DNA of 64,000 nt from the NCBI GenBank assembly GCA_036268875.1, contig DATATI010000072.1, positions 1-64,000 on the forward strand, read 5' to 3'. This document shows, one piece after another, positions 9,395 to 50,977 of this stretch. Position 1 is the first letter of the stretch, and each line of letters starts with the position of its first letter. The notes beneath the pieces are model-generated. The model saw only the letters and a list, made by a program, of their open reading frames with translations. It did not search any database and had not been told where the DNA came from. This DNA is from Polyangia bacterium. GTDB taxonomy: Bacteria; Myxococcota_A; Polyangia; Fen-1088. The translations under genes were made by a program, and so were the position numbers.

Positions 9395-10260
9395 TGACCT
9401 TCAACCTCGAACGCCTGACGCCCGATCTGCTGGTCGTTCTCGATCGGTCCGGGTCGATGAATGAAGCCGTGGCCGGGAACCAATCAACGTCGAAGTGGCA
9501 AGACATGACCGCCGCCATCAACCAGGTGGTCTCCCAGACCGAGACCGCCATTCATTGGGGCCTGAAGTATTCCCCCACCGACGAGTTCTGCACCGTCAGC
9601 GACGGAACAGCCGTGCCGGTGGCGGCGACGAACGCCGCCCTGATCAACACATCGATTCTGAACACCATGCCCGGGGGGCGGACGCCCACACGCGTGGCGG
9701 TGCAAAACGGGGTCACCTATCTGGCGGCGCTGCCCGACGGAAATCCCAAGTACATCCTGCTCGCCACTGATGGAGAACCGAACTGCCTCGATCCCGGAGC
9801 GGGAATGTCGGTCCCCGACGACGCCGGATCGATCCAGGCGGTGGCGGCGGCAGCGGCGCAAGGGATCCCGACCTTCGTCATCGGCATCGCCACCTCCGGC
9901 GATCAATCCAACGTGACGCTGTCGCAGATGGCCATCGCCGGCCTGCGTCCGCGCGCCGCTGACCCGCGGTATTTCCCGGTCAACAACAAGGACGATCTGG
10001 TGACGACGTTGACCGCCATCGGCGGCGAGATCGCCACCTGCTCATTCGCCCTTGCCGCGCGCCCACCCGATCCCACTAATATTGCGGTGATCGTCGACGG
10101 CGCCCGGCTGATGAAGGATCCCGGCCATTCCGACGGTTGGGATTATGGGGGAGGGGATTCGTCCATCCAGCTTTTTGGTAGCTGGTGTGACAAGGCGAAG
10201 GCTGGGATGATTATGAACGTCAAGGCCACCTTTGGCTGTCCGGGCGTGGTGATTCAGTAG
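9382..10260 (+). CDS. VWA-domain protein, body of frameshifted gene
   Basis: A 292-residue frame, apparently beginning GTG TGC GGA, that carries a von Willebrand factor A domain. MIDAS residues are in LDRSGSM near the start and in LLATDGEPNC. A conserved C-terminal region (PPDPTNIAVIVDGARLMKDP, LFGSWCDKAKAG, FGCPGVVIQ) follows. It is about 45-50% identical by eye to the downstream paralogue. Without the fragment at 9212-9394 it lacks the export signal, so on its own it would stay in the cytoplasm. No ribosome binding site precedes the GTG, so expression probably depends on the upstream start and a shift of frame. Confidence 0.7.
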   Translation: MCGMMTFNLERLTPDLLVVLDRSGSMNEAVAGNQSTSKWQDMTAAINQVVSQTETAIHWGLKYSPTDEFCTVSDGTAVPVAATNAALINTSILNTMPGGRTPTRVAVQNGVTYLAALPDGNPKYILLATDGEPNCLDPGAGMSVPDDAGSIQAVAAAAAQGIPTFVIGIATSGDQSNVTLSQMAIAGLRPRAADPRYFPVNNKDDLVTTLTAIGGEIATCSFALAARPPDPTNIAVIVDGARLMKDPGHSDGWDYGGGDSSIQLFGSWCDKAKAGMIMNVKATFGCPGVVIQ

Positions 10261-10286
10261 CATTCGCAATCAACTCTGGAGGACAC

Positions 10287-11390
10287 ATGCGGCGCACGAC
10301 TAGCGTGTTATGGCTGACAGCGACCCTCGCGCTGGGCTGTACCACGAGCGGAATCAAACCCGGCGGCAGCGGCACCGGCAACAGTGGCGGCGGCAACACC
10401 TCGGGCGGCGGCGGCAACAGCGGCGCCGGCGGGATGGTCAAGGATCCGACCGGACCGACCTGCGGCATGAAGACGTTCGGACTGCAGAAGGGTATCCCGG
10501 ACCTGATGCTGGTCCAGGACAAGTCCGGGTCGATGGCAGACATGCCCGATGGCACGAGCTGCGCGGCCGGCCGCGGACGCAATCCGGTCCCGCCGCCCGC
10601 GGGCTGCGCGGCGATGGCGAAATGGCCGCAGATGACCGCGGCCATCAACCAGGTGGTCACGCAAACGCAAACCACCATCCGCTGGGGTTTGAAGTTCTTC
10701 CCCGACATGGGCAACGATCAGTGCGCCGTCACCGCCGCGCCCGAGGTGCCCATCGCCGATATGAACGCAGCCGCCATCACCGCGCAGATCGCCGCCACCA
10801 TGCCCAACGGTGGAACGCCCACCCGCACGGCCGTCGCTGCCGCCAGCATGAACCTTGCGATGCTGCCTGACACCAACCCGAAGTTCATCCTGCTGGCCAC
10901 CGACGGGCTTCCGAACTGCATCCCGGGCGGCGGCTCGCAAGCCTCCGACGCTGACGGCGCCATCCAGGCGGTCACTGACAGCTTCAAGAACGGGATCCCG
11001 GTGTTCGTGGTCGGCATCGGCTCCGTGGCCGAGGCCGACGCCACGCTGACCGCGATGGCGGTCGCCGGCGGCGAACCGCAGACGGCGGATCCGAAATACT
11101 ATCCGGTGAGCAGCACCGCCGATCTGGTGACCGTTCTGGGCACCATCGGCGGCATGATCGGCTCGTGCTCGTTCCCTCTCGGCAGCGTGCCGCCCGATCC
11201 GACCAACATCGCGATCACCGCCAACGGCGCCAAGATCCCGAACGATCCGACACACAAGAACGGCTGGGACTACAGCAGCCCCGCCCAAACGTCGGTGCAG
11301 TTGTTCGGCAGCTACTGCGACGACGCCAAGGCCGGCAAGCTGGCCAACGTGCAGGCCATCTTCGGCTGCCCGGGCAAGATCATTCCATAA
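10287..11390 (+). CDS. VWA-domain lipoprotein
   Basis: A 367-residue lipoprotein. The signal peptide ends ATLALGC (Cys 18), a Gly/Ser/Asn linker runs to about residue 50, and a VWA domain spans about 68-260 with MIDAS DKSGS at 78-82 and LLATDGLPNC later. The C-terminal block (PPDPTNIAITANGAKIPNDP, LFGSYCDDAKAG, FGCPGKIIP) is shared with the frameshifted paralogue just upstream. A GGAGG site lies 26 bases after the previous stop, so the two form a tandem duplication in one transcript. VWA domains bind proteins through a metal ion; the ligand is unknown. Confidence 0.8.
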   Translation: MRRTTSVLWLTATLALGCTTSGIKPGGSGTGNSGGGNTSGGGGNSGAGGMVKDPTGPTCGMKTFGLQKGIPDLMLVQDKSGSMADMPDGTSCAAGRGRNPVPPPAGCAAMAKWPQMTAAINQVVTQTQTTIRWGLKFFPDMGNDQCAVTAAPEVPIADMNAAAITAQIAATMPNGGTPTRTAVAAASMNLAMLPDTNPKFILLATDGLPNCIPGGGSQASDADGAIQAVTDSFKNGIPVFVVGIGSVAEADATLTAMAVAGGEPQTADPKYYPVSSTADLVTVLGTIGGMIGSCSFPLGSVPPDPTNIAITANGAKIPNDPTHKNGWDYSSPAQTSVQLFGSYCDDAKAGKLANVQAIFGCPGKIIP

Positions 11391-38665: not shown

Positions 38666-40210
38666 ATGGTTTTGAGGTGCTTGGAAGGTGCGGCTGAGGT
38701 GGAGACCGACATCGAGCATGTGCGCCGCGAACGCGATCTCTATCGCGCCCTCCTGGATCTCGGGGTGGCCGAGAAGATCGACACATTCCTGGAACAGGCG
38801 CTGAGCCTGATCGTCAATGTCACCGGCGCGCGCCGCGGGTACATCGAGCTCACCGAAGAAGCGAGCGGCCAGCCGCGCTGGTGGTGCGCCCACGATTGCT
38901 CGGGCGATCAGGTGCAGGCGATCCGCTCGGCGTTTTCGCGCGGCGTGATTGCCGAAGCCCTGGCCACCGGAAAAACCGTGGCCACCGCGTCGGCGCTGGA
39001 CGATCCCCGCTTCCGCGATCTCGGCAGCGTGCGCAAGAACCGCATCGAAGCCGTGCTGTGCGCGCCCATCGGGGCGTCGCCGCCGATGGGGATTTTGTAC
39101 CTGCAAGATCGCCTGCAGCCCGGCCCCTTCGCCGAGGAAGATCGACAGGACGCCGAGGTCTTCGCTCGTCACCTGGCCACGCTGGCCGATCGCATCTTGA
39201 TCCGGCAGCGTCAGGCCACCGAGACCGATCCCACCGGCGAGTTTCGTCGCAGCTTGCACGTCGAAGGATTGGTGGGCCACAGCCCGGCGATGGCCAGCGT
39301 CCTGCGCCACGTCTCCCTGGTGGCGCCCATCGATGTCAGCGTCCTCATCACCGGACCGTCGGGCACGGGCAAGACGCAGCTGGCGCGCATCATCCACGAA
39401 AACGGCCCGCGCGCCGCCGGACCCTTCGTCGAGCTGAACTGCGCCGCGCTGCCCGAGACGCTGATCGAAAGCGAGCTCTTCGGCGCGGTGCCGGGCGCGC
39501 ACTCGACGGCGTCGCGACGAGTGGAAGGCAAGGTGGCCTCCGCCGAGGGCGGCACGTTGTTCCTGGACGAGATCGGCGAGCTGCCGCCGCCGGCGCAGTC
39601 CAAGCTGCTGCAGCTACTGCACTCGAAAGAATATTTTCCGCTGGGCGCGCCCCGCCCGATACGCGCCGACATCCGCATCATCGCCGCCACCAACAGTGAT
39701 CTGAAAAAAGCGGTCGCCGAGAAACTGTTCCGTGAGGATCTCTTCTATCGCCTACAAGTGTTGCCGGTGCGGATGCCGTCGCTGGCGGAACGCCGTGAGG
39801 ACATCCCGCAGCTCTTGTCTCATTTCTGCAGCCGTGCCCGCGCCAGCCACCAACTGCCCGAGCTGCGCCTGTCCGTCGGCGCCACCCAGGCGGCGCTGGC
39901 CGCCGAATGGCCGGGCAACCTCCGCGAGCTGGCCCACGCGGTCGAGGCCGCCTCCATCCGCGCCGCCGCGCAAGGCGTGTTGACGATTGAACGCACGCAC
40001 CTGTTTCCCGATCTCGAGCCATCGGAGAGCGAGGTGCGTGGGTCGATGACCTTCCAGCAGGCCACGCGCCTGTTCCAGGGCGAGCTTCTGCGCCGCACCC
40101 TGGAAGAAACCGGTTGGAATGTCGTCGAGGCGGCGAGCCGTCTGGATCTCGCCCGCTCGCACATCTACAACCTCATCCGCGCACACGGGCTCGAACGCAA
40201 AACGGCATGA
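38666..40210 (+). CDS. Enhancer-binding-type AAA+ regulator with GAF domain and altered GAFTGA loop
   Basis: A 514-residue NtrC-like regulator. A GAF sensor spans about 20-165, and an AAA+ domain about 190-420 with Walker A TGPSGTGKT near 231 and Walker B GGTLFLDEIGEL near 295. A Fis-type HTH is at the C-terminus (VVEAASRLDLARSHIYNLIR). The sigma54-contact loop, normally GAFTGA after ESELFG, reads GAHSTA (ESELFGAVPGAHSTA), so classical sigma54 activation is doubtful although ATP binding looks intact. The start is ATG 38666; GTG 38699 is an alternative. Its stop overlaps the start of the 1239-residue kinase gene (ATGA), so regulator and kinase are made together. Confidence 0.85.
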   Translation: MVLRCLEGAAEVETDIEHVRRERDLYRALLDLGVAEKIDTFLEQALSLIVNVTGARRGYIELTEEASGQPRWWCAHDCSGDQVQAIRSAFSRGVIAEALATGKTVATASALDDPRFRDLGSVRKNRIEAVLCAPIGASPPMGILYLQDRLQPGPFAEEDRQDAEVFARHLATLADRILIRQRQATETDPTGEFRRSLHVEGLVGHSPAMASVLRHVSLVAPIDVSVLITGPSGTGKTQLARIIHENGPRAAGPFVELNCAALPETLIESELFGAVPGAHSTASRRVEGKVASAEGGTLFLDEIGELPPPAQSKLLQLLHSKEYFPLGAPRPIRADIRIIAATNSDLKKAVAEKLFREDLFYRLQVLPVRMPSLAERREDIPQLLSHFCSRARASHQLPELRLSVGATQAALAAEWPGNLRELAHAVEAASIRAAAQGVLTIERTHLFPDLEPSESEVRGSMTFQQATRLFQGELLRRTLEETGWNVVEAASRLDLARSHIYNLIRAHGLERKTA

Positions 40211-43946: not shown

Positions 43947-45014
43947 TCACGCCACGGCAGCGAAGCGACGCGTGACCCACAGATAGACTTTTGCTTCGAT
44001 CGGCCGCGGCGGTTCCAGCACGATCTTCACGTGGCTGATGAGACGCACCGCTTGACTGGGCCAGCGCCCGGCCACCGCCACCGGCGCGCCCGTCCCCGGC
44101 CAACGCTCCAGCGCTTCCGCCTGCTCACGCGCGCACAGCCCGAAGGTCTGCAAGCGATCGCCGATGGTCCCCCATTCGTCGCCGGTCTTTTTGGACAATG
44201 CCGGCGACAGCTCGACGCCGATGCGCCGACCGACGGACGCGCTGACATCGATCTGCAACGAGACCTGCGCGCTGGCAGGAAAAAGCGCGTGCAACACGCC
44301 GGGCAGTTGCGCCGCTTCGTCAGCCCAGCCAAGGGCGTCCAGATAACCGGACAGCCGCGCCCGCGGCACCGAAATGAAAAGCCGCACCGCCATCTGCTGG
44401 CGCGGCAGCATCACCGCCACGTCAATCACCCGCCCGCCGAGCGGCAGCGCGCGGAACACCGCGCTCAGCTGTACGCGGGTGGCCGCGTCCACCGGCTGAC
44501 CTAGCAGCGTGTGGGCCAGCTCGTCGACCACCGGTGCGGCCTGCGCCCATTGTTGCGCGCCGTCGCCGATGGCAGCGTCGACGCGGGCGAAGATCGACGG
44601 CGGCCGCGCGGCGGTGAAAGGCGCATCGAACTCGAGAAACACCATTTCGATAGGCGTGTGCAACGACGACGACGGATCGGCCCAGCGCGCGGCGAAGGCG
44701 CCCACCCGCTGCCAGGCCCGGGTGTCGGCGGGCGAGGCGTCCGCAATCATGGCGGGCGCCCGCCCCCAGATCTCGCGCCCACCGCCCCGCGCCGCCACGC
44801 TGGTGTAAAAATCGACCGCGGCGAGGTGTGGTTGCAGGCGCAGCTCGAACCCGAAGCCGTGCATGGCCTCGGGCAGCCGGCGGGCCAGCGCCGCCACGCC
44901 CGTCCGCGCGTCAGCCGGGATGAGAGCGAGAGCTGCCGGATCCTGCAGCACCTCATCCACCGTGCTGAAAAGCGGACAGATCATGTCGCGCTGGCCAATC
45001 GCCGCTTTCTTCAT
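43947..45014 (-). CDS. Unknown protein of the subtilase cluster
   Basis: A 355-residue protein with no signal peptide or membrane helix. Motif-like segments include GFELRLQPHLAAVDFYT, MVFLEFDAPF, GRRIGVELSPALSKKTGDEW, WPGTGAPVAVAGRW and HVKIVLEPPRPIEAKVYLWV. The alternation of strands and helices suggests a repeated alpha/beta fold. I recall the pattern from uncharacterised proteins near modified-peptide genes but cannot name a family. It lies 13 bases after the LigA-like/IPT-like gene, last in a three-gene minus-strand unit with a cytoplasmic subtilase, which points to a shared intracellular process. Confidence 0.6.
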   Translation of the reverse strand: MKKAAIGQRDMICPLFSTVDEVLQDPAALALIPADARTGVAALARRLPEAMHGFGFELRLQPHLAAVDFYTSVAARGGGREIWGRAPAMIADASPADTRAWQRVGAFAARWADPSSSLHTPIEMVFLEFDAPFTAARPPSIFARVDAAIGDGAQQWAQAAPVVDELAHTLLGQPVDAATRVQLSAVFRALPLGGRVIDVAVMLPRQQMAVRLFISVPRARLSGYLDALGWADEAAQLPGVLHALFPASAQVSLQIDVSASVGRRIGVELSPALSKKTGDEWGTIGDRLQTFGLCAREQAEALERWPGTGAPVAVAGRWPSQAVRLISHVKIVLEPPRPIEAKVYLWVTRRFAAVA

Positions 45015-45027
45015 TGCGCGTTCGCCG

Positions 45028-45576
45028 TTACTGCACCTTGAAGAACGGGCCGTTCTTCCACGACCGCAGTGGCGGCACGTCCTCGCCGTTGATCACCTCG
45101 ATCCGGTATTCACCAGCCGTGGCGCCCGACAGATCGAATGTCGCGCGCATCTCCGCCTCGCGGAAGGTGCCGCTGACGCCGGCGACCGCCCCCGCGACCG
45201 TCGCCCCACTGTCGGCAGACCGCGGGATCAACCGCACCGCCGCCGTCGGCAACAAGCCTTCGCCACGAATGGTCAGCGCCACCAGCGCGCCCGGCGCCGC
45301 CGCCCGCGGCTCAAAGCTGCGCACCTGAGGATCGGGAACCGGCCAGTCCGGCAACACCGGCGCGCCGCCCTGCAAAGGCGCGTTGGCGGTGAACTCCTCG
45401 CGGATGAACTCGCCGATCCGGGGCGCGCTCATCGAATAGAAGATCGACCGCTGATGATCGCTCAGTCCATAGCTGTTCATCACGCTCTCGGGATTCTCGA
45501 CAAAGGCGCCTTGCTTGCCTGCGTCGCGCATGAGATCCGCCACCATGTACAGCAACAACCCATTCTCATTCGCCAT
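45028..45576 (-). CDS. LigA-like helical domain fused to IPT-like beta domain
   Basis: A 182-residue protein. Residues 1-55 (LLYMVADLMRDAGKQGAF, ENPESVMNSYGLSDHQRSIF) look like the small helical LigA/Nif11-type domain used as a leader in some modified peptides or as the dioxygenase alpha subunit. Residues about 80-182 look like an IPT/TIG immunoglobulin-type fold (PDPQVRSFEPRAAAPGALVA, TAGEYRIEVING). No signal peptide and no obvious core peptide or GG cut site. It sits between the subtilase gene (95 bases) and the 355-residue gene (13 bases). It may be the subtilase substrate or a carrier protein; this is inference. Confidence 0.6.
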   Translation of the reverse strand: MANENGLLLYMVADLMRDAGKQGAFVENPESVMNSYGLSDHQRSIFYSMSAPRIGEFIREEFTANAPLQGGAPVLPDWPVPDPQVRSFEPRAAAPGALVALTIRGEGLLPTAAVRLIPRSADSGATVAGAVAGVSGTFREAEMRATFDLSGATAGEYRIEVINGEDVPPLRSWKNGPFFKVQ

Positions 45577-45671
45577 CTAACGCCTCCCTGTCTGTGGTTT
45601 TGCGGCGGACGGGTACCGTCGGGGCAGAGGAAGGCCGCCGCACGCAGCCTCGACCCGGGCTTTGGACTTTT

Positions 45672-47156
45672 TTATCGTCGCGGGCGCAAATCGACCGTCG
45701 GCTCCCGGTGCAACCAATCGGGTGGTCGATAGTTCGCGGGGGGCGCGGTCAACGCTTCGGCGATGGCCGCCGCATCGATGACGCCCCAGCCACTGTCGTG
45801 ATCAAATCCTTGCGAACCGATGTGGCGCGCTTGCTTCTTGATGATCGCGCGCAGCGCCGCCGGCGACGTTTCGGGACGGCGCGGATCATAGGGAAAACCA
45901 GAGCGCACGGCGGCGATCACCCCGGCGGCCAGCGCGCAGGCCGCCGACGTGCCGTCGTCGGGAACGCTGCCGCCCATGATCGCCGAGCCGGCAAAGCGCG
46001 CGAAGGCCGCCACGTCCGGTTTCTCCGAAAAAAAAACCCCCGGGCCGGGCCGCGAGATGGGCAACCGTTGCGATTCGACGTCGACCGCTCCCACGGTCAG
46101 TACCGACGGGTGTGAGTTGGCACCGCTGATCGGGCGAGGCGCGTTCTCACGTTCGTCGGATGAGGTGTTTCCGGCCGAAAAAACGATGTCCGCGCCCAGC
46201 AGGGCCAGCTGGCCAACCAACTTGTTCAACGCGTGGTCGGGGTTCGAGCCATAGTTCGATGAGCTGTCGGGCGGATGATCGTGCGCGATGTCCACTTCCC
46301 AGCTGCACGACACCACCAGCGAGCGCAGACGTCCTTGCTTGGCGTTGGTCACCATCAGCTCGCACAGGTGCCCGAAGGCACGAATCGCGTCGCTGAGCAT
46401 GACGTCCAGCGGCCCAGCGTCGTCGTTGGGATGCGGCTGATAGGGACGAAAGGCCGCCACGTCGAGGACGGTGCATACCGGCGCCGCCACCGCCACATCG
46501 AATGCGCACATCGTGCCGTGCCCGACGGGAAAGGTATACGGGCGCGTCTTTTCGCCCGCCGACCAGCTGATCGCTTCGTCAAATTGAATGCGAGCGGCGC
46601 CGCGCTCGAGGAACGGGCGATTGATTCCCGCGTCGATAACGGCGACGAAAACGCCCGCGCCGTTGAAGCCGTTCGCCGCCAGCACGTCGGTGCCCAGCAG
46701 ATGACGAACCGTGTCCAGCTGTCCGGTGGCAGCGGTCCGTCGCTCCAGCGACGAAAATGAAATCGGAAGGTCGGCCGAAACAGCCGCCACTGCGCCATCG
46801 CGGTTCGCCGCTTCTGCCAACCCTTTGCGCGCCGCCGGTTCGGTCCAGGCGCGGGCGATGAACGCGCTGGCCTCCATTGCCGGATCGATCGCCCAGCGCG
46901 GTTCCAGATCGACCGCCGCGTGGGGGCCCGGACGGCGATGCGGCGACCGCAGCGGGATCAGCGCGAACGAACCATCCCATTCCACGCCGTCCAGGCGGGG
47001 CAGCACGCCGACGTCGACGTCACGGCGTCCCTCCGCGGCCATCTCCGCGAGACGGCGCGAGTACCGCAACTCGACCAGCACCGGCTCGACAGTGCGAACC
47101 AAGGACAGCCGGTGTTCTCGACCTCGGCTGATCTCGTCGTGGTTCGCGTTCGTCAC
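45672..47156 (-). CDS. Cytoplasmic subtilisin-like (S8) peptidase
   Basis: A 494-residue S8 family serine peptidase. Catalytic residues are visible as Asp in VAVIDAGIN, His in PVGHGTMCAFDV and Ser in DDGTSAACALAAG, with the oxyanion Asn in FSAGNTSSD. The N-terminal 150 residues are not a classical I9 propeptide, and there is no signal peptide, so the enzyme should act inside the cell. GTG start at 47156. First gene of the three-gene unit; a dyad at 47262-47279 and a hairpin at 47220-47243 lie upstream. Intracellular subtilases beside small leader-like proteins often process modified peptides, which is the favoured but unproven role. Confidence 0.85.
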   Translation of the reverse strand: MTNANHDEISRGREHRLSLVRTVEPVLVELRYSRRLAEMAAEGRRDVDVGVLPRLDGVEWDGSFALIPLRSPHRRPGPHAAVDLEPRWAIDPAMEASAFIARAWTEPAARKGLAEAANRDGAVAAVSADLPISFSSLERRTAATGQLDTVRHLLGTDVLAANGFNGAGVFVAVIDAGINRPFLERGAARIQFDEAISWSAGEKTRPYTFPVGHGTMCAFDVAVAAPVCTVLDVAAFRPYQPHPNDDAGPLDVMLSDAIRAFGHLCELMVTNAKQGRLRSLVVSCSWEVDIAHDHPPDSSSNYGSNPDHALNKLVGQLALLGADIVFSAGNTSSDERENAPRPISGANSHPSVLTVGAVDVESQRLPISRPGPGVFFSEKPDVAAFARFAGSAIMGGSVPDDGTSAACALAAGVIAAVRSGFPYDPRRPETSPAALRAIIKKQARHIGSQGFDHDSGWGVIDAAAIAEALTAPPANYRPPDWLHREPTVDLRPRR

Positions 47157-47561
47157 GTCCGTTCGTCAGTGCAACCGCCAAACCACTACCGCACCGCATC
47201 CGGCATTCCCCCATTTTTCGGCCGAATTTCGACGAAATCGGCCCACTGCCTGCCGCGATTGTGTCTGATTAGTCAGACAAAAACGCCAGATCGGCCTCCT
47301 TCAGTGTCCAAGAAACCATACATACCGAACATTGTGCTTGTACCATCCTGGAGGCTACTGCCCTGGCCCTCGCTGGACCCTAAGTTTGGCCGAGGCAAGC
47401 CGTCAGTGCGCCCGCTATTCGCCCGCCGTCTCCGCAAGGGCGCTCGGGCATTGCTCGCACGGCCGGCACCGCTTCAATGACGGAGGCCCGGTCTTCGCCG
47501 CGGCTGCTCAACCCCACTCCGATCCCCGCGCGGGGGTCTCGTCGGGGGGGCGTCCCGGCCC
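47157..47561. other. Intergenic, with leader of the subtilase operon
   Basis: 405 bases without a convincing gene. The part next to the subtilase start contains the hairpin and dyad described separately. The rest (47290-47561) holds only short frames without ribosome binding sites or recognisable products. Confidence 0.5.
47220..47279 (-). promoter_or_regulatory. Dyad and hairpin upstream of the subtilase operon
   Basis: A perfect 7-bp inverted repeat TGTCTGA-TTAG-TCAGACA lies at 47262-47279 and has the size and spacing of a dimeric repressor or activator site. Nearer the gene, GGCCGAATTTCG-A-CGAAATCGGCC (47220-47243) forms an 11-bp hairpin with one bulged base. Both are within 125 bases of the subtilase start codon. 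Confidence 0.5.
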
Positions 47562-48860
47562 CTACGCTGCTAGATCGTCCAGCGTGCCTTCGTAGCCCTT
47601 GGCGCCGAAGCTGGTCAAGGTCATGCCCATGGCGTTGCCCAGGGTGGCCAGCAAGCGGTTGTGCGGAATCTTGCTGTACTTGACCATGCGACCGGTCTTG
47701 AAGTAACCGCCGCAGCTTCCGATCAACACGAACGGGATGTTGCCGATGTAATGATTGGCGCCGTTGTCCATGTCGGTGGCGGTCAGAACCACGCTGTGAT
47801 CCAGAACCGTGCCGCCCGCTTCCATGGCGCCATCGAGCTGCTTGATCATCCCGGCGACCTGGGTGAACAGCCAGTTGTCGATCTTTGTCTTCTCGACCGA
47901 GGCGCTTTGGTCGTGCGCCACGGTGTGGTAATCGCGGGTTGATCCAGCCTGCGGGAACGAGTTGCCGTCACCCCCGCCGTCGCAGAACAGATCGAACGTG
48001 GCCACCCGGGTGACGTCGCAAATCAAGGCCACCGACGTCAGGTCGAACATCGATTTGATCAGCGTCGGGTTGTCCTTGATGCCCGTCGCGGGCTGGGCAG
48101 GCGGCATGCAGGTGGTCGGCATGGTCGTCGCCGTCTGCAGCTCCATCTCCAGCTCACGCACCGACGCCTGGTGCGCCTGAATCTTCGTGCGATCGTCGGT
48201 GCCCAAGCGCGCGCTGAACGAGGTGAGATCCTTGCTCAGATAGTCCAGCACGCTTTGCCGCCGCAGGCGCAACGTATCGACCTGCATGGTCGGCATCGCG
48301 GCGCTGCTGAACAGCGTGGTGAACAACCGATTGGGATCGGTCTCTGGCGCGTTCTTTTGCATGGCCGCCCGCCAGGTGCTGGGCTGGCCACCCGGACTGG
48401 ACTTCACGCCCAGGTGCAACGCTGGAACGGTCAAGGTGACGCCTTTGGTCCGAAGGTCATCCGAGATAACCTGATCCAGCGACGGCCCCATCCCGTTGGT
48501 GCTCTCGGACTTGTTCTCGGCGGTGCCAGTCAGCAGCGTCGGATAGCTGAAGTGCCCGTCGTACTGCCGGTTGTAATCAAGCAGGATCTTCATGTCCAGA
48601 CCCTGCGTGACGATCATCTTGGACTTCCATTGCTCAAGCGGCGACAACGTCCCCAGCAGCGGCGCCGTCGTCAGATCGGGCGACGTGGGAAAGAACGTGC
48701 TGCCAATGATGCCATTGGTCCACACGACGCTGACGAACCGCTTTGGGAAGCCGTCGGCCGTCGCGCCCTTCGCGCGCTCGGCATGAAGCAGCGGCACCAT
48801 GGCCGCGCTGGCGCCCATTCGCTTGATAAATGCCCGGCGCGAGAATCGTTGATGGTTCAT
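47562..48860 (-). CDS. DUF1552 protein with Tat-type signal
   Basis: A 432-residue protein of the DUF1552 family. The N-terminus has a twin-arginine motif (FSRRAFIKRMGASAAMVPLL), so it is probably exported folded. Family-like segments follow: FPKRFVSVVWTNGIIG, GHFSYPTLLTGTAENKS, FDLFCDGGGDGNSFP and DMDNGANHYIGNIPFVLIG. Such proteins are paired with DUF1592 proteins in planctomycetes and myxobacteria, and no biochemical role is established. Its start overlaps the stop of the DUF1592 gene (ATGA), so the two are co-translated. Confidence 0.9.
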   Translation of the reverse strand: MNHQRFSRRAFIKRMGASAAMVPLLHAERAKGATADGFPKRFVSVVWTNGIIGSTFFPTSPDLTTAPLLGTLSPLEQWKSKMIVTQGLDMKILLDYNRQYDGHFSYPTLLTGTAENKSESTNGMGPSLDQVISDDLRTKGVTLTVPALHLGVKSSPGGQPSTWRAAMQKNAPETDPNRLFTTLFSSAAMPTMQVDTLRLRRQSVLDYLSKDLTSFSARLGTDDRTKIQAHQASVRELEMELQTATTMPTTCMPPAQPATGIKDNPTLIKSMFDLTSVALICDVTRVATFDLFCDGGGDGNSFPQAGSTRDYHTVAHDQSASVEKTKIDNWLFTQVAGMIKQLDGAMEAGGTVLDHSVVLTATDMDNGANHYIGNIPFVLIGSCGGYFKTGRMVKYSKIPHNRLLATLGNAMGMTLTSFGAKGYEGTLDDLAA

Positions 48861-50593
48861 TGGTTCATCTCCCCAGCGGCCAGGCTTCGGTATCGGAAAG
48901 AACGCGATCCCGCCACACCCACCAGCAGGCTGCGAACGGCATCGCCGCCTTTGTTGAACTCGCCGACGGCACCGTCAATCGACGCCCGGTCGGCGTCGGT
49001 GTCCACGCGCTTGTATGCGAACCGCGCCACCTGGGTGGCGAAGCAGTTGCGAACGTCGTTGCTGTTGGCCAGCAGCTGCGTCAGCCCGATCGCGTCGTTG
49101 AACGTCTTCTTGCCGCCATCCAATTGAATCGATCCGCTTGAATCGACCGGCAGGTTGTTGTCCGTCGTTCGATAGCCGCCGATGCCGTCGTAGTGCTCGA
49201 AGGCAAAGCCGATCGGATCCATGTTGCTGTGGCAGGCAATCGCGCACGCGTTGCTGTCGTGATCCTTGTAGCGATCGCGCGTGGTGCCGCCGGCCGATGC
49301 TGGCTTGGCCGGCGGAACGTTCGCCGGCGGCGGCGGCAGAACGCCGCACAAGAAGCGCTCGTAGACCTTGTGGCCACGCTTGACGGGATCTGAGCCGTTG
49401 GTGGCGCCGGTCAAGCTGAGAAAGCCGAGCTGGGTCAGGATACCCGCCCGCTGCGTTGAATCCAGCGACGTGCGCGCGGCGGTGGTGCCGCTGACGCCGC
49501 TGACGCCGTAGACCCCCGCCGACGACGCCTCGAGATAAGAGTAGTTCGCCGTCAGCAAGGACTTGAGGAGACCGTCGCCGTCGAAGACAACGTTGCTGAC
49601 GAAGGCGTTAGCCTCGTCATTCATGGCGGTCTTGAGAGCGTCGTTGAATTGCGGATAGACCATCATGTCCTTCGGTCGATCCGAGACCTGGTCGAGGCTC
49701 ATCCACTCCTGCACGAACTCCTGGACGGTGGCGCGCGCCTTGTTGTCGGCCAGCATCCGCGTGGCCTGCGCTTCCAGATCGGCTTGCGCGCTGAGCTTGC
49801 CCATGGCGGCAGCGTCAAATAGCGCCTGGTCCGGCATAGAGCCCCAGATGAAGTACGACAGTCGAGAGGCGTTTTCGTACGAGCCCAGCTTGACCACGCT
49901 TCCTTCCATCGTCGGTTTGTTCGGCCCCAGCTCCCAGTGGTAGAGGAACTCCGGCGCCTGCAGCATTGCCTCCAGCAGCAGGCTGACCCCACTGGTCACC
50001 GTCAGCGACAGCGTGGTGCGGCCGGTCTGGTAAAGCGCCATCAGCGCATCGGCCTCCGCGGCGGCGACCGGGCGACGGTAGATCTTCAGGCCGAAGTTCT
50101 GCACGAAGCTGCGGATGCAGGTCTGTTCGTTGGCGGCCGAGGTGTCGCAGGGAACCATCGTGGCGAAGTTGTTCTTCACGGCGTTGGCGGCGACCGCTTC
50201 GGCGGCGTCGCGCAGCGTGGTCGCATCCTGCGAGGTCACGATCCCGAACCGACGATAAAGGAAGTCACCGTCGTGATCATCGGGAAGCGCGTTGGCCGGA
50301 TTGGTGTTGTCGTTGAAGAGATCGGAAACCGTGTTGTTGTACTCGCGGCGCGTAAGGCGCGTCAGCGGCATGGGCCCGGCCGCGTTGGGGTCCGCCGGCG
50401 TGCTGGTCGAGGGATTGCCGCCCGTGGTTGAACCCGGACCGGTGGTACTCCCCGGCCCGCCCGGGTTATTCGAAGAACCCGGCCCGCCGTTGGGACCGCC
50501 CGGTTCTGAACCGCCGGGTGTTCCGATCGAGCCCTGACAGCCGCCGACGGCAATCGACACCGCGGCCAGGGACACGAGAGACAGTTTCTTCAT
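48857..50593 (-). CDS. DUF1592-family lipoprotein with c-type-heme-like motif
   Basis: A 578-residue lipoprotein. The signal ends SIAVGGC (Cys 19), then a Gly/Pro/Ser linker, then DUF1587-like (MPLTRLTRREYNNTVSDLF), DUF1595-like (YRRPVAAAEADALMALYQTG), DUF1592 (SYENASRLSYFIWGSMPDQ), DUF1588 (DPVKRGHKVYERFLC) and DUF1585 segments. The heme-like motif reads CAIACH (three residues between the Cys, not two), followed by SNMDPIGFAFEHYDG as in the family. ATG 50593 was chosen because it gives the signal peptide; AAAGG lies ten bases upstream. It is coupled to DUF1552. Suspected to be an extracytoplasmic redox protein; substrate unknown. Confidence 0.85.
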   Translation of the reverse strand: MKKLSLVSLAAVSIAVGGCQGSIGTPGGSEPGGPNGGPGSSNNPGGPGSTTGPGSTTGGNPSTSTPADPNAAGPMPLTRLTRREYNNTVSDLFNDNTNPANALPDDHDGDFLYRRFGIVTSQDATTLRDAAEAVAANAVKNNFATMVPCDTSAANEQTCIRSFVQNFGLKIYRRPVAAAEADALMALYQTGRTTLSLTVTSGVSLLLEAMLQAPEFLYHWELGPNKPTMEGSVVKLGSYENASRLSYFIWGSMPDQALFDAAAMGKLSAQADLEAQATRMLADNKARATVQEFVQEWMSLDQVSDRPKDMMVYPQFNDALKTAMNDEANAFVSNVVFDGDGLLKSLLTANYSYLEASSAGVYGVSGVSGTTAARTSLDSTQRAGILTQLGFLSLTGATNGSDPVKRGHKVYERFLCGVLPPPPANVPPAKPASAGGTTRDRYKDHDSNACAIACHSNMDPIGFAFEHYDGIGGYRTTDNNLPVDSSGSIQLDGGKKTFNDAIGLTQLLANSNDVRNCFATQVARFAYKRVDTDADRASIDGAVGEFNKGGDAVRSLLVGVAGSRSFRYRSLAAGEMNQ

Positions 50594-50977
50594 GGTGGTC
50601 TTGGCCTTTCGCAGCCGGGAAATCGCAACCCAGTTCTGGCCTCCCAACCGGTCCACCCACATCATGCCCCGACTTAGACTAGTGGAGGTGCACGGAAGGA
50701 AGCGATCAAGAAAGTCGCACATGAGTTATCTGAGTAAAACTGTTCGTGAATCTCTCTGCAAAGGCGGTTGTCTTCAAATCTTGGTACCCCATCGACTTTC
50801 GTCCTCAAACGCCGCGCCGCGCCGGTGGCGCCCACTTCCGACCTGAAGGCCTTTGACCAGGCACCGCAATGGGCAATGGAGCGGGAAGGAGCAAACCTTC
50901 AAGCAAGAACGGACATTTCTTTGCTAGTCTTTCGGCCGCGGCGCAATCGACTCTGCGCAACGTTCATGCGATAGGTC
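50594..50977. other. Intergenic, divergent promoter region
   Basis: 384 bases between the DUF1592 gene and the outer-membrane-type gene at 50978. The part 50690-50800 is less GC-rich than its surroundings (CATGAGTTATCTGAGTAAAA) and probably contains the divergent promoters. No RNA gene or protein gene is supported. Confidence 0.4.

Follow-up and report, generated by a model that had tools for sequence, protein, structure and literature searches.

The window analysed here, a stretch of 64,000 nucleotides from a Polyangia bacterium, contains three neighbouring open reading frames (ORFs), all on the minus strand, which an earlier note made from the sequence alone had described as an intracellular subtilase cluster with a LigA/Nif11-like protein and a protein of no known family. 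The three ORFs lie where that note had placed them (Table 1). They encode an S8 subtilase (P0001), a 182-residue protein with a helical and a beta domain (P0002), and a 355-residue protein (P0003) with a predicted alpha-beta-beta-alpha (ABBA) fold. The conserved unit at this locus is the ABBA-fold protein together with its partner, not the trio.

Table 1. Features of the locus, with positions in the window
Feature	Position	Strand	Basis
S8 subtilase, 494 residues, GTG start, without signal peptide; variable cargo/peptidase slot	45672..47156	-	PF00082, E 4e-22
Catalytic Asp175 codon (VIDAGIN)	46632..46634	-	alignment with relatives
Catalytic His213 codon (VGHGT)	46518..46520	-	alignment with relatives
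Catalytic Ser404 codon (DGTSAA)	45945..45947	-	alignment with relatives
182-residue protein with LigA helices, linker Trp and IPT domain; proposed substrate/adaptor	45028..45576	-	
Residues 6-65 of the 182-residue protein: five-helix LigA/NHLP-clan leader-like domain, SonA-leader homologue	45382..45561	-	
Trp78 codon in the linker of the 182-residue protein; proposed prenylation site	45343..45345	-	
Residues 84-181 of the 182-residue protein: IPT/TIG-like beta sandwich	45034..45327	-	model and PDB structure matches
355-residue ABBA-fold prenyltransferase-like protein	43947..45014	-	AlphaFold2 and Foldseek
Invariant Glu57 codon, strand 1; candidate catalytic Glu of the 355-residue protein	44844..44846	-	
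Codons 330-344 with invariant Lys330, Lys342 and Tyr344, strands 9 and 10; candidate diphosphate-binding residues	43983..44027	-	
Ser/Thr kinase-AAA_16 protein, ~1,239 residues	40207..43926	+	Pfam
GAF-sigma54 activator-HTH regulator	38666..40210	+	

The ABBA-fold protein and its LigA-IPT partner

The 355-residue protein has no Pfam or NCBIfam match, and to this extent it belongs to no known family, as the earlier note had stated; its fold, however, can be recognised as ABBA. An AlphaFold2 model built on 17 aligned homologues (predicted local distance difference test score 84.9, predicted template modelling score 0.86) comprises ten strands in five alpha-beta-beta-alpha units, an arrangement that sequence repeats had suggested ahead of the model. 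When the model was compared with the PDB using Foldseek, the best 50 of 618 matches were all ABBA aromatic or indole prenyltransferases (best E 2.2e-5, template modelling (TM) scores of about 0.45-0.56), and model and matches together identify a ten-stranded antiparallel barrel of the ABBA type. E57, K330, K342 and Y344 are identical in all 24 non-redundant homologues, and E128, D130, D68 and W111 in 23 of them. ABBA enzymes use acidic, basic and Tyr residues of this sort, and the invariant set could fit diphosphate binding and an indole-directed Glu. As modelled, the protein looks like a member of an unrecognised family of ABBA-fold prenyltransferases. The likeness is one of fold: a link to solved structures at the sequence level was sought and not found, and a GPP34 match (0.012, in one family member) was discarded as chance.

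The 182-residue protein on its own reaches the LigA model of Pfam only below threshold (E 0.12). At the family level, 9/9 members match LigA (best 3.8e-7), eight match IniB_NTERM, four match the Os1348 model of the NHLP clan, which describes ribosomally synthesised and post-translationally modified peptides (RiPPs), and two match TIG (Pfam); a PatE-type model is not among the NCBIfam hits of the family. A search of the PDB with the family profile retrieved the split-borosin precursor SonA over the helical part (E 2.6e-7). The SonA leader is a five-helix bundle (PMC8429565), and the model of the 182-residue protein likewise has five helices (6-17, 19-27, 29-35, 40-48 and 51-65), followed by strands from residue 84 onward, for which the best PDB structure matches include the IPT/TIG domains of NFAT and EBF1. 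Judged from these profiles, the LigA assignment is firm for the family and suggestive for the single protein. Both the LigA/Nif11-like N-terminus, for which the earlier note had named the lack of a matching profile as a refutation, and the IPT-like beta domain have thus been borne out. The kinship to modified-peptide systems proposed in that note is upheld as well, by the SonA homology and by the RiPP-type aromatic prenyltransferase fold of the third protein.

We found 39 copies of the ABBA-fold gene. This gene and a partner, which is either a P0002-like or a beta-domain gene, recur together, mostly beside a Ser/Thr kinase-AAA gene, and in related genomes the pair of 182- and 355-residue types recurs without the subtilase. 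In the window, the kinase-AAA gene is convergent with the 355-residue gene, and its start overlaps the stop of the GAF-sigma54 activator gene (ATGA); a GAF/sigma54-type ORF was also seen by eye in the G061 locus. A promoter scan at the locus found nothing.

LigA domains were also encountered in other settings. In L173 (3-485) and L174 (5568-6497), next to large ORFs, a LigA leader precedes numerous tandem repeats (PAAIYASQ; VVYAAG), and these proteins are candidate multi-core RiPP precursors. L174 has a kinase-FGE fusion as the neighbour and also contains one gene of tetrapyrrole-methylase type (borosin-like) and one that is ferritin-like. In L175 (6407-6604), L176 (6456-6653) and L179 (6363-6875), APWNCP or SPWSCP motifs occur in short LigA-leader proteins near Ser/Thr kinase-type genes; the neighbours in L175 and L179 were confirmed as Pkinase-TPR, and an ABBA-fold gene was not detected near any of the three.

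Tryptophan in the partner proteins

The model of the 182-residue protein shows a leader followed by a folded IPT domain and not by a short released core. The absence of a core peptide stated in the earlier note needs a qualification. The linker between the helices and the IPT domain varies among the P0002 relatives except for one Trp (W78), which is present in 26/27 members and in 12/13 at 60% non-redundancy and is, jointly with one Pro and one Leu, the most conserved position. From this conservation, the linker Trp appears to be a plausible modification site.

A Trp-bearing partner accompanies 36 of the 39 P0003 copies, with the Trp in the linker, in an N-terminal M(x)W or at the C-terminus. 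Beta-domain partners that lack LigA start with MTWS (L120), MGWS (L123), MWS (twice in L122), MVWT (L234) or MAWL (L235), and a purine-rich, Shine-Dalgarno-like stretch precedes these starts. Partners with a C-terminal Trp occur at five loci (L151, L152, L226, L232 and L233) and end in GRDFW, GGPNW, PPIW, AFCW and PPWW; they include the 91-residue protein of L151 and the 75-residue protein of L152, the partner at the latter locus lying ~5 kb from the P0003 copy. As a background, 6/505 other genes encode a C-terminal Trp. The pattern held in 19/19 further P0003 loci fetched after the hypothesis had been written down, a test set that contains many close relatives.

In a tree of 38 P0003 sequences, the enzymes whose partners carry a C-terminal Trp form one clade (93/85), and four of the five N-terminal-Trp members form another (100/99). 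The Trp-class labels require six changes on this tree compared with 12.5 after shuffling, and none of 200 shuffles gave a value as low. A Trp position that tracks the phylogeny of the enzyme would fit enzyme-substrate co-evolution, with near-copies inflating the signal. A divergent P0003 relative in L154 (5225-7635) lies among genes for a Nif11-type leader protein, a lasso-type PqqD-like protein and an HprK-related kinase, a neighbourhood that points to RiPP chemistry.

The third slot and the subtilase

The third gene position next to the pair is variable. It holds the S8 subtilase in the window and, in L121, an M28 peptidase that forms an in-frame fusion with LigA-IPT. In the five genomes behind L217-L221 the slot peptidase is trypsin-like (Trypsin_2 was confirmed for four of them, and L220 was assigned by its near-identical sequence). 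Many other loci have FG-GAP propellers, identified by Pfam (L148, L120), by similarity (L223, L225, L227-L231) or by eye (L144, L146, L147, L149, L150, L234), and in L143 and L224 the propeller is fused to LigA-IPT. Dyp or haem peroxidases occupy the slot in L232 and L233. Since the slot exchanges unrelated proteins, and since two kinds of them are fused to LigA, we favour the view that the slot protein is linked to the modified module as a cargo or effector. By analogy, the subtilase is best read as a cargo or effector of the cassette or, less likely, as a leader protease.

Two of these loci contain further genes of interest. In L217 (3081-5762), the LigA-IPT/ABBA pair is separated from the kinase gene by an FHA protein and a trypsin-like peptidase with an extra N-terminal region. 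The M28-LigA-IPT fusion of L121, the LigA protein of which has no linker Trp, directly adjoins a gene for an FAD-dependent oxidoreductase with weak tryptophan-halogenase similarity (9730-10794), which could be another modifying enzyme.

The subtilase itself corresponds to its earlier description as an intracellular S8 peptidase. In an alignment with 12 relatives, D175, H213, S404 and the oxyanion Asn N330 are invariant, and a hydrophobic signal peptide was not seen at the N-terminus. The genome yielded only two genes that match PF00082. The subtilase of the window fails the PatA/PatG model TIGR03895 of NCBIfam (E 0.049, 12.4 bits, cut-off 421). The end of the cluster had been set at 47279, which is ~120 bases into the non-coding DNA upstream of the subtilase gene; beyond it, at 47562-50722, two minus-strand ORFs resemble by eye a DUF1552/DUF1588 pair. 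Such pairs are common in Planctomycetes and Myxococcota.

Tblastn searches confirmed 165 candidate relatives of the subtilase, of which the best 80 loci were kept. The relatives occur in Acidobacteria, Nitrospira, alphaproteobacteria, actinomycetes, cyanobacteria and others, and no LigA-domain protein was found near them in these 80 loci. Most directly adjoin an unrelated protein of ~80 residues. Among the genomes searched, only the present one has the subtilase beside the 182- and 355-residue pair. The three-gene operon as a conserved unit, as the earlier note had conceived it, was therefore rejected, because the relatives of the subtilase have another small neighbour and the pair recurs without the subtilase. 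That note had regarded independent occurrence of homologues as fatal to its proposal; this is what we found for the subtilase, whereas the 182- and 355-residue proteins keep together.

The ~80-residue companion (L025-L104; e.g. L028:8777-9037, L081:8064-8297, L038:6728-6982) belongs to no Pfam family. It follows the pattern ..LGLxEEEVDTGYGLVxIDPxxGLYxLRV..GPYSDPxIEPYGPP and is weakly similar to the N-terminal region of the subtilase itself; it may be a stand-alone propeptide-like inhibitor. It was considered as a missing part of the present locus and rejected, since it is absent from the window and a search of the remaining genome did not find it (best E 0.33).

Proposed function and comparison with known systems

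The domains and SonA homology of the 182-residue protein, the ABBA fold, the near-invariant Trp and its co-variation with enzyme clades, the linkage of the genes and the slot fusions are consistent with a RiPP-like cassette, a proposal to which we give an even chance. We infer a catalytic activity, a prenyl donor and Trp78 as the acceptor. The LigA-type helices of the 182-residue protein would be what the 355-residue enzyme recognises, in analogy to SonA and SonM, and an isoprenyl group would be placed on Trp78, which lies in the flexible linker ahead of the IPT domain. The prenylated IPT protein might then serve as a lipidated or sticky adaptor that attaches to the membrane or to the slot protein, here the subtilase, and the adjacent Ser/Thr kinase-AAA protein would be the likely regulator.

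Several observations weigh against this proposal. The TM-scores are moderate, profile searches with the 355-residue family against PDB and Pfam sequences retrieved no prenyltransferase, and in the tree the enzyme of the window has a long branch, with L154 as its neighbour. Its activity is a prediction, and the barrel may persist for binding alone. Three P0003 copies (L121, L153 and L154) have no Trp-bearing partner, and in the test set the ORF or start of L231 and L234 was assigned by hand after looking. As several loci are close relatives, counts across loci overstate their independence. The C-terminal-Trp partners of L232 and L233 and the N-terminal-Trp partners have no detectable LigA domain; recognition via LigA can therefore not be general. 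Finally, the subtilase occupies the slot in a single genome, and its role is assigned by analogy.

The subtilase could alternatively be a leader protease that severs the LigA helices from the IPT domain once Trp78 has been modified, so that the mature IPT protein keeps the modified Trp near its N-terminus, in the manner of PatA/PatG and PatF in cyanobactins. Leaderless partners next to the enzyme indeed start with M(x)W shortly ahead of the beta domain, S8, M28 and S1 peptidases share the same slot, and S8 proteases remove leaders in the cyanobactin and nisin pathways (PMC10885120). We nevertheless consider this role unlikely. Most loci have a propeller or a peroxidase in the slot, which a leader protease would not explain, the LigA domain lies inside the fusion and not at its N-terminus in L121, L143 and L224, and a cleavage motif was not found. 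M28 enzymes, moreover, are typically aminopeptidases.

The peptidases could also act as toxic effectors, licensed by a kinase-AAA protein that senses stress or attack, with the LigA-IPT and ABBA-fold proteins as a scaffold without chemistry. The kinase-AAA neighbours and the three unrelated peptidase families in the slot would agree with this, and trypsin-like and S8 peptidases belong to nucleoside triphosphate (NTP)-dependent conflict systems of multicellular bacteria (PMC7159879). Yet FG-GAP propellers and peroxidases are not typical effectors, and a near-invariant Trp together with invariant Glu, Lys, Lys and Tyr residues is hard to explain by binding alone. PADLOC, which covers described anti-phage systems, gave only weak hits for the subtilase and none for the 182- and 355-residue proteins, and an assignment of the trio to a toxin-antitoxin or known defence system was rejected for want of PADLOC support. 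We regard the effector scenario as improbable. Chance neighbourhood, with the pair and the kinase as the only true unit and the subtilase inserted without relation to them, appears quite improbable to us. The spread of the subtilase family over many phyla without a LigA-domain protein detected beside it, its restriction to one genome next to the pair and the 95-bp gap to the 182-residue gene speak for an insertion, but the subtilase is on the same strand as the pair and closely spaced with it, other peptidases occupy the same slot in G061 and the five genomes behind L217-L221, and fusions to the LigA-IPT module are seen at other loci for two kinds of slot protein.

Prenylation of polypeptides in bacteria has been attributed to the cyanobactin F family and to trans-IDS-like enzymes, which act on small peptides (2026 review, PMC13290415). 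We tentatively suggest, at slightly less than even confidence, a third group of bacterial polypeptide prenyltransferases: ABBA-fold enzymes with no detectable similarity in sequence to those described, whose substrates would be folded proteins with a borosin-type leader, prenylated at a tail or linker Trp. Peptidases, propellers and peroxidases of Myxococcota would in this way become part of lipid-modified protein complexes. A literature search for a LigA leader plus a prenyltransferase in myxobacteria found nothing relevant. If the RiPP-like cassette is real, an ABBA-fold family that is unrelated in sequence and uses a RiPP leader to act on folded proteins would carry RiPP logic over to entire proteins. 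An enzyme for labelling proteins selectively at Trp would become available, and a family that Pfam and NCBIfam do not cover would gain a function open to testing; if confirmed, the cassette would represent a new form of protein prenylation.

Compared with ABBA prenyltransferases such as NphB/Orf2, EpzP, IptA/DMATS, PriB and CymD, the 355-residue family shares the predicted five-fold alpha-beta-beta-alpha barrel, as seen in the best 50 PDB matches, but it lacks detectable sequence similarity, and its genomic tie is to a folded protein partner and not to small-molecule biosynthesis. Split borosins (SonA/SonM) have in common with the 182-residue protein the LigA-type (LigA/BBD) five-helix leader, on the evidence of the SonA profile match; their modifying enzyme, however, is an alpha-N-methyltransferase, and none is encoded by the adjacent genes (subtilase, ABBA-fold protein, kinase, sigma54 activator). 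RiPPs with NHLP or LigA leaders resemble it in the helical leader domain, whereas here no short core is released from the leader. The NTP-dependent conflict systems described by the Aravind group likewise combine kinase/ATPase regulators with S8 or trypsin-like peptidases in multicellular bacteria, but PMC7159879 mentions no prenyltransferase, LigA or IPT component.

The cyanobactin loci (PatE, the subtilisins PatA/PatG and PatF-family proteins) come closer, as each of them unites a leader-bearing precursor with a subtilisin-like protease and a prenyltransferase of alpha-beta-beta-alpha fold (PMC13290415). In contrast, the precursor of the present locus is of LigA type with a folded IPT domain at its end, there is a kinase-AAA gene, and a heterocyclase or macrocyclase was not seen in the adjacent genes. 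PalX/PalQ/PalP of Paenibacillus, a cluster of three genes, combines a Trp prenyltransferase and a kinase with an NHLP-type precursor whose terminal Trp is conserved (PMC10853753), and the C-terminal-Trp loci L151, L152 and L226 look most like it; yet PalQ has an isoprene-synthase fold and not the ABBA fold, PalX has no IPT domain and PalP is a histidine kinase. Because the subtilase does not pass the PatA/PatG model, a short core is missing and the enzyme fold differs from that of PalQ, the cassette is a member of neither class, and PalX/PalQ/PalP and the cyanobactins are its nearest functional parallels.

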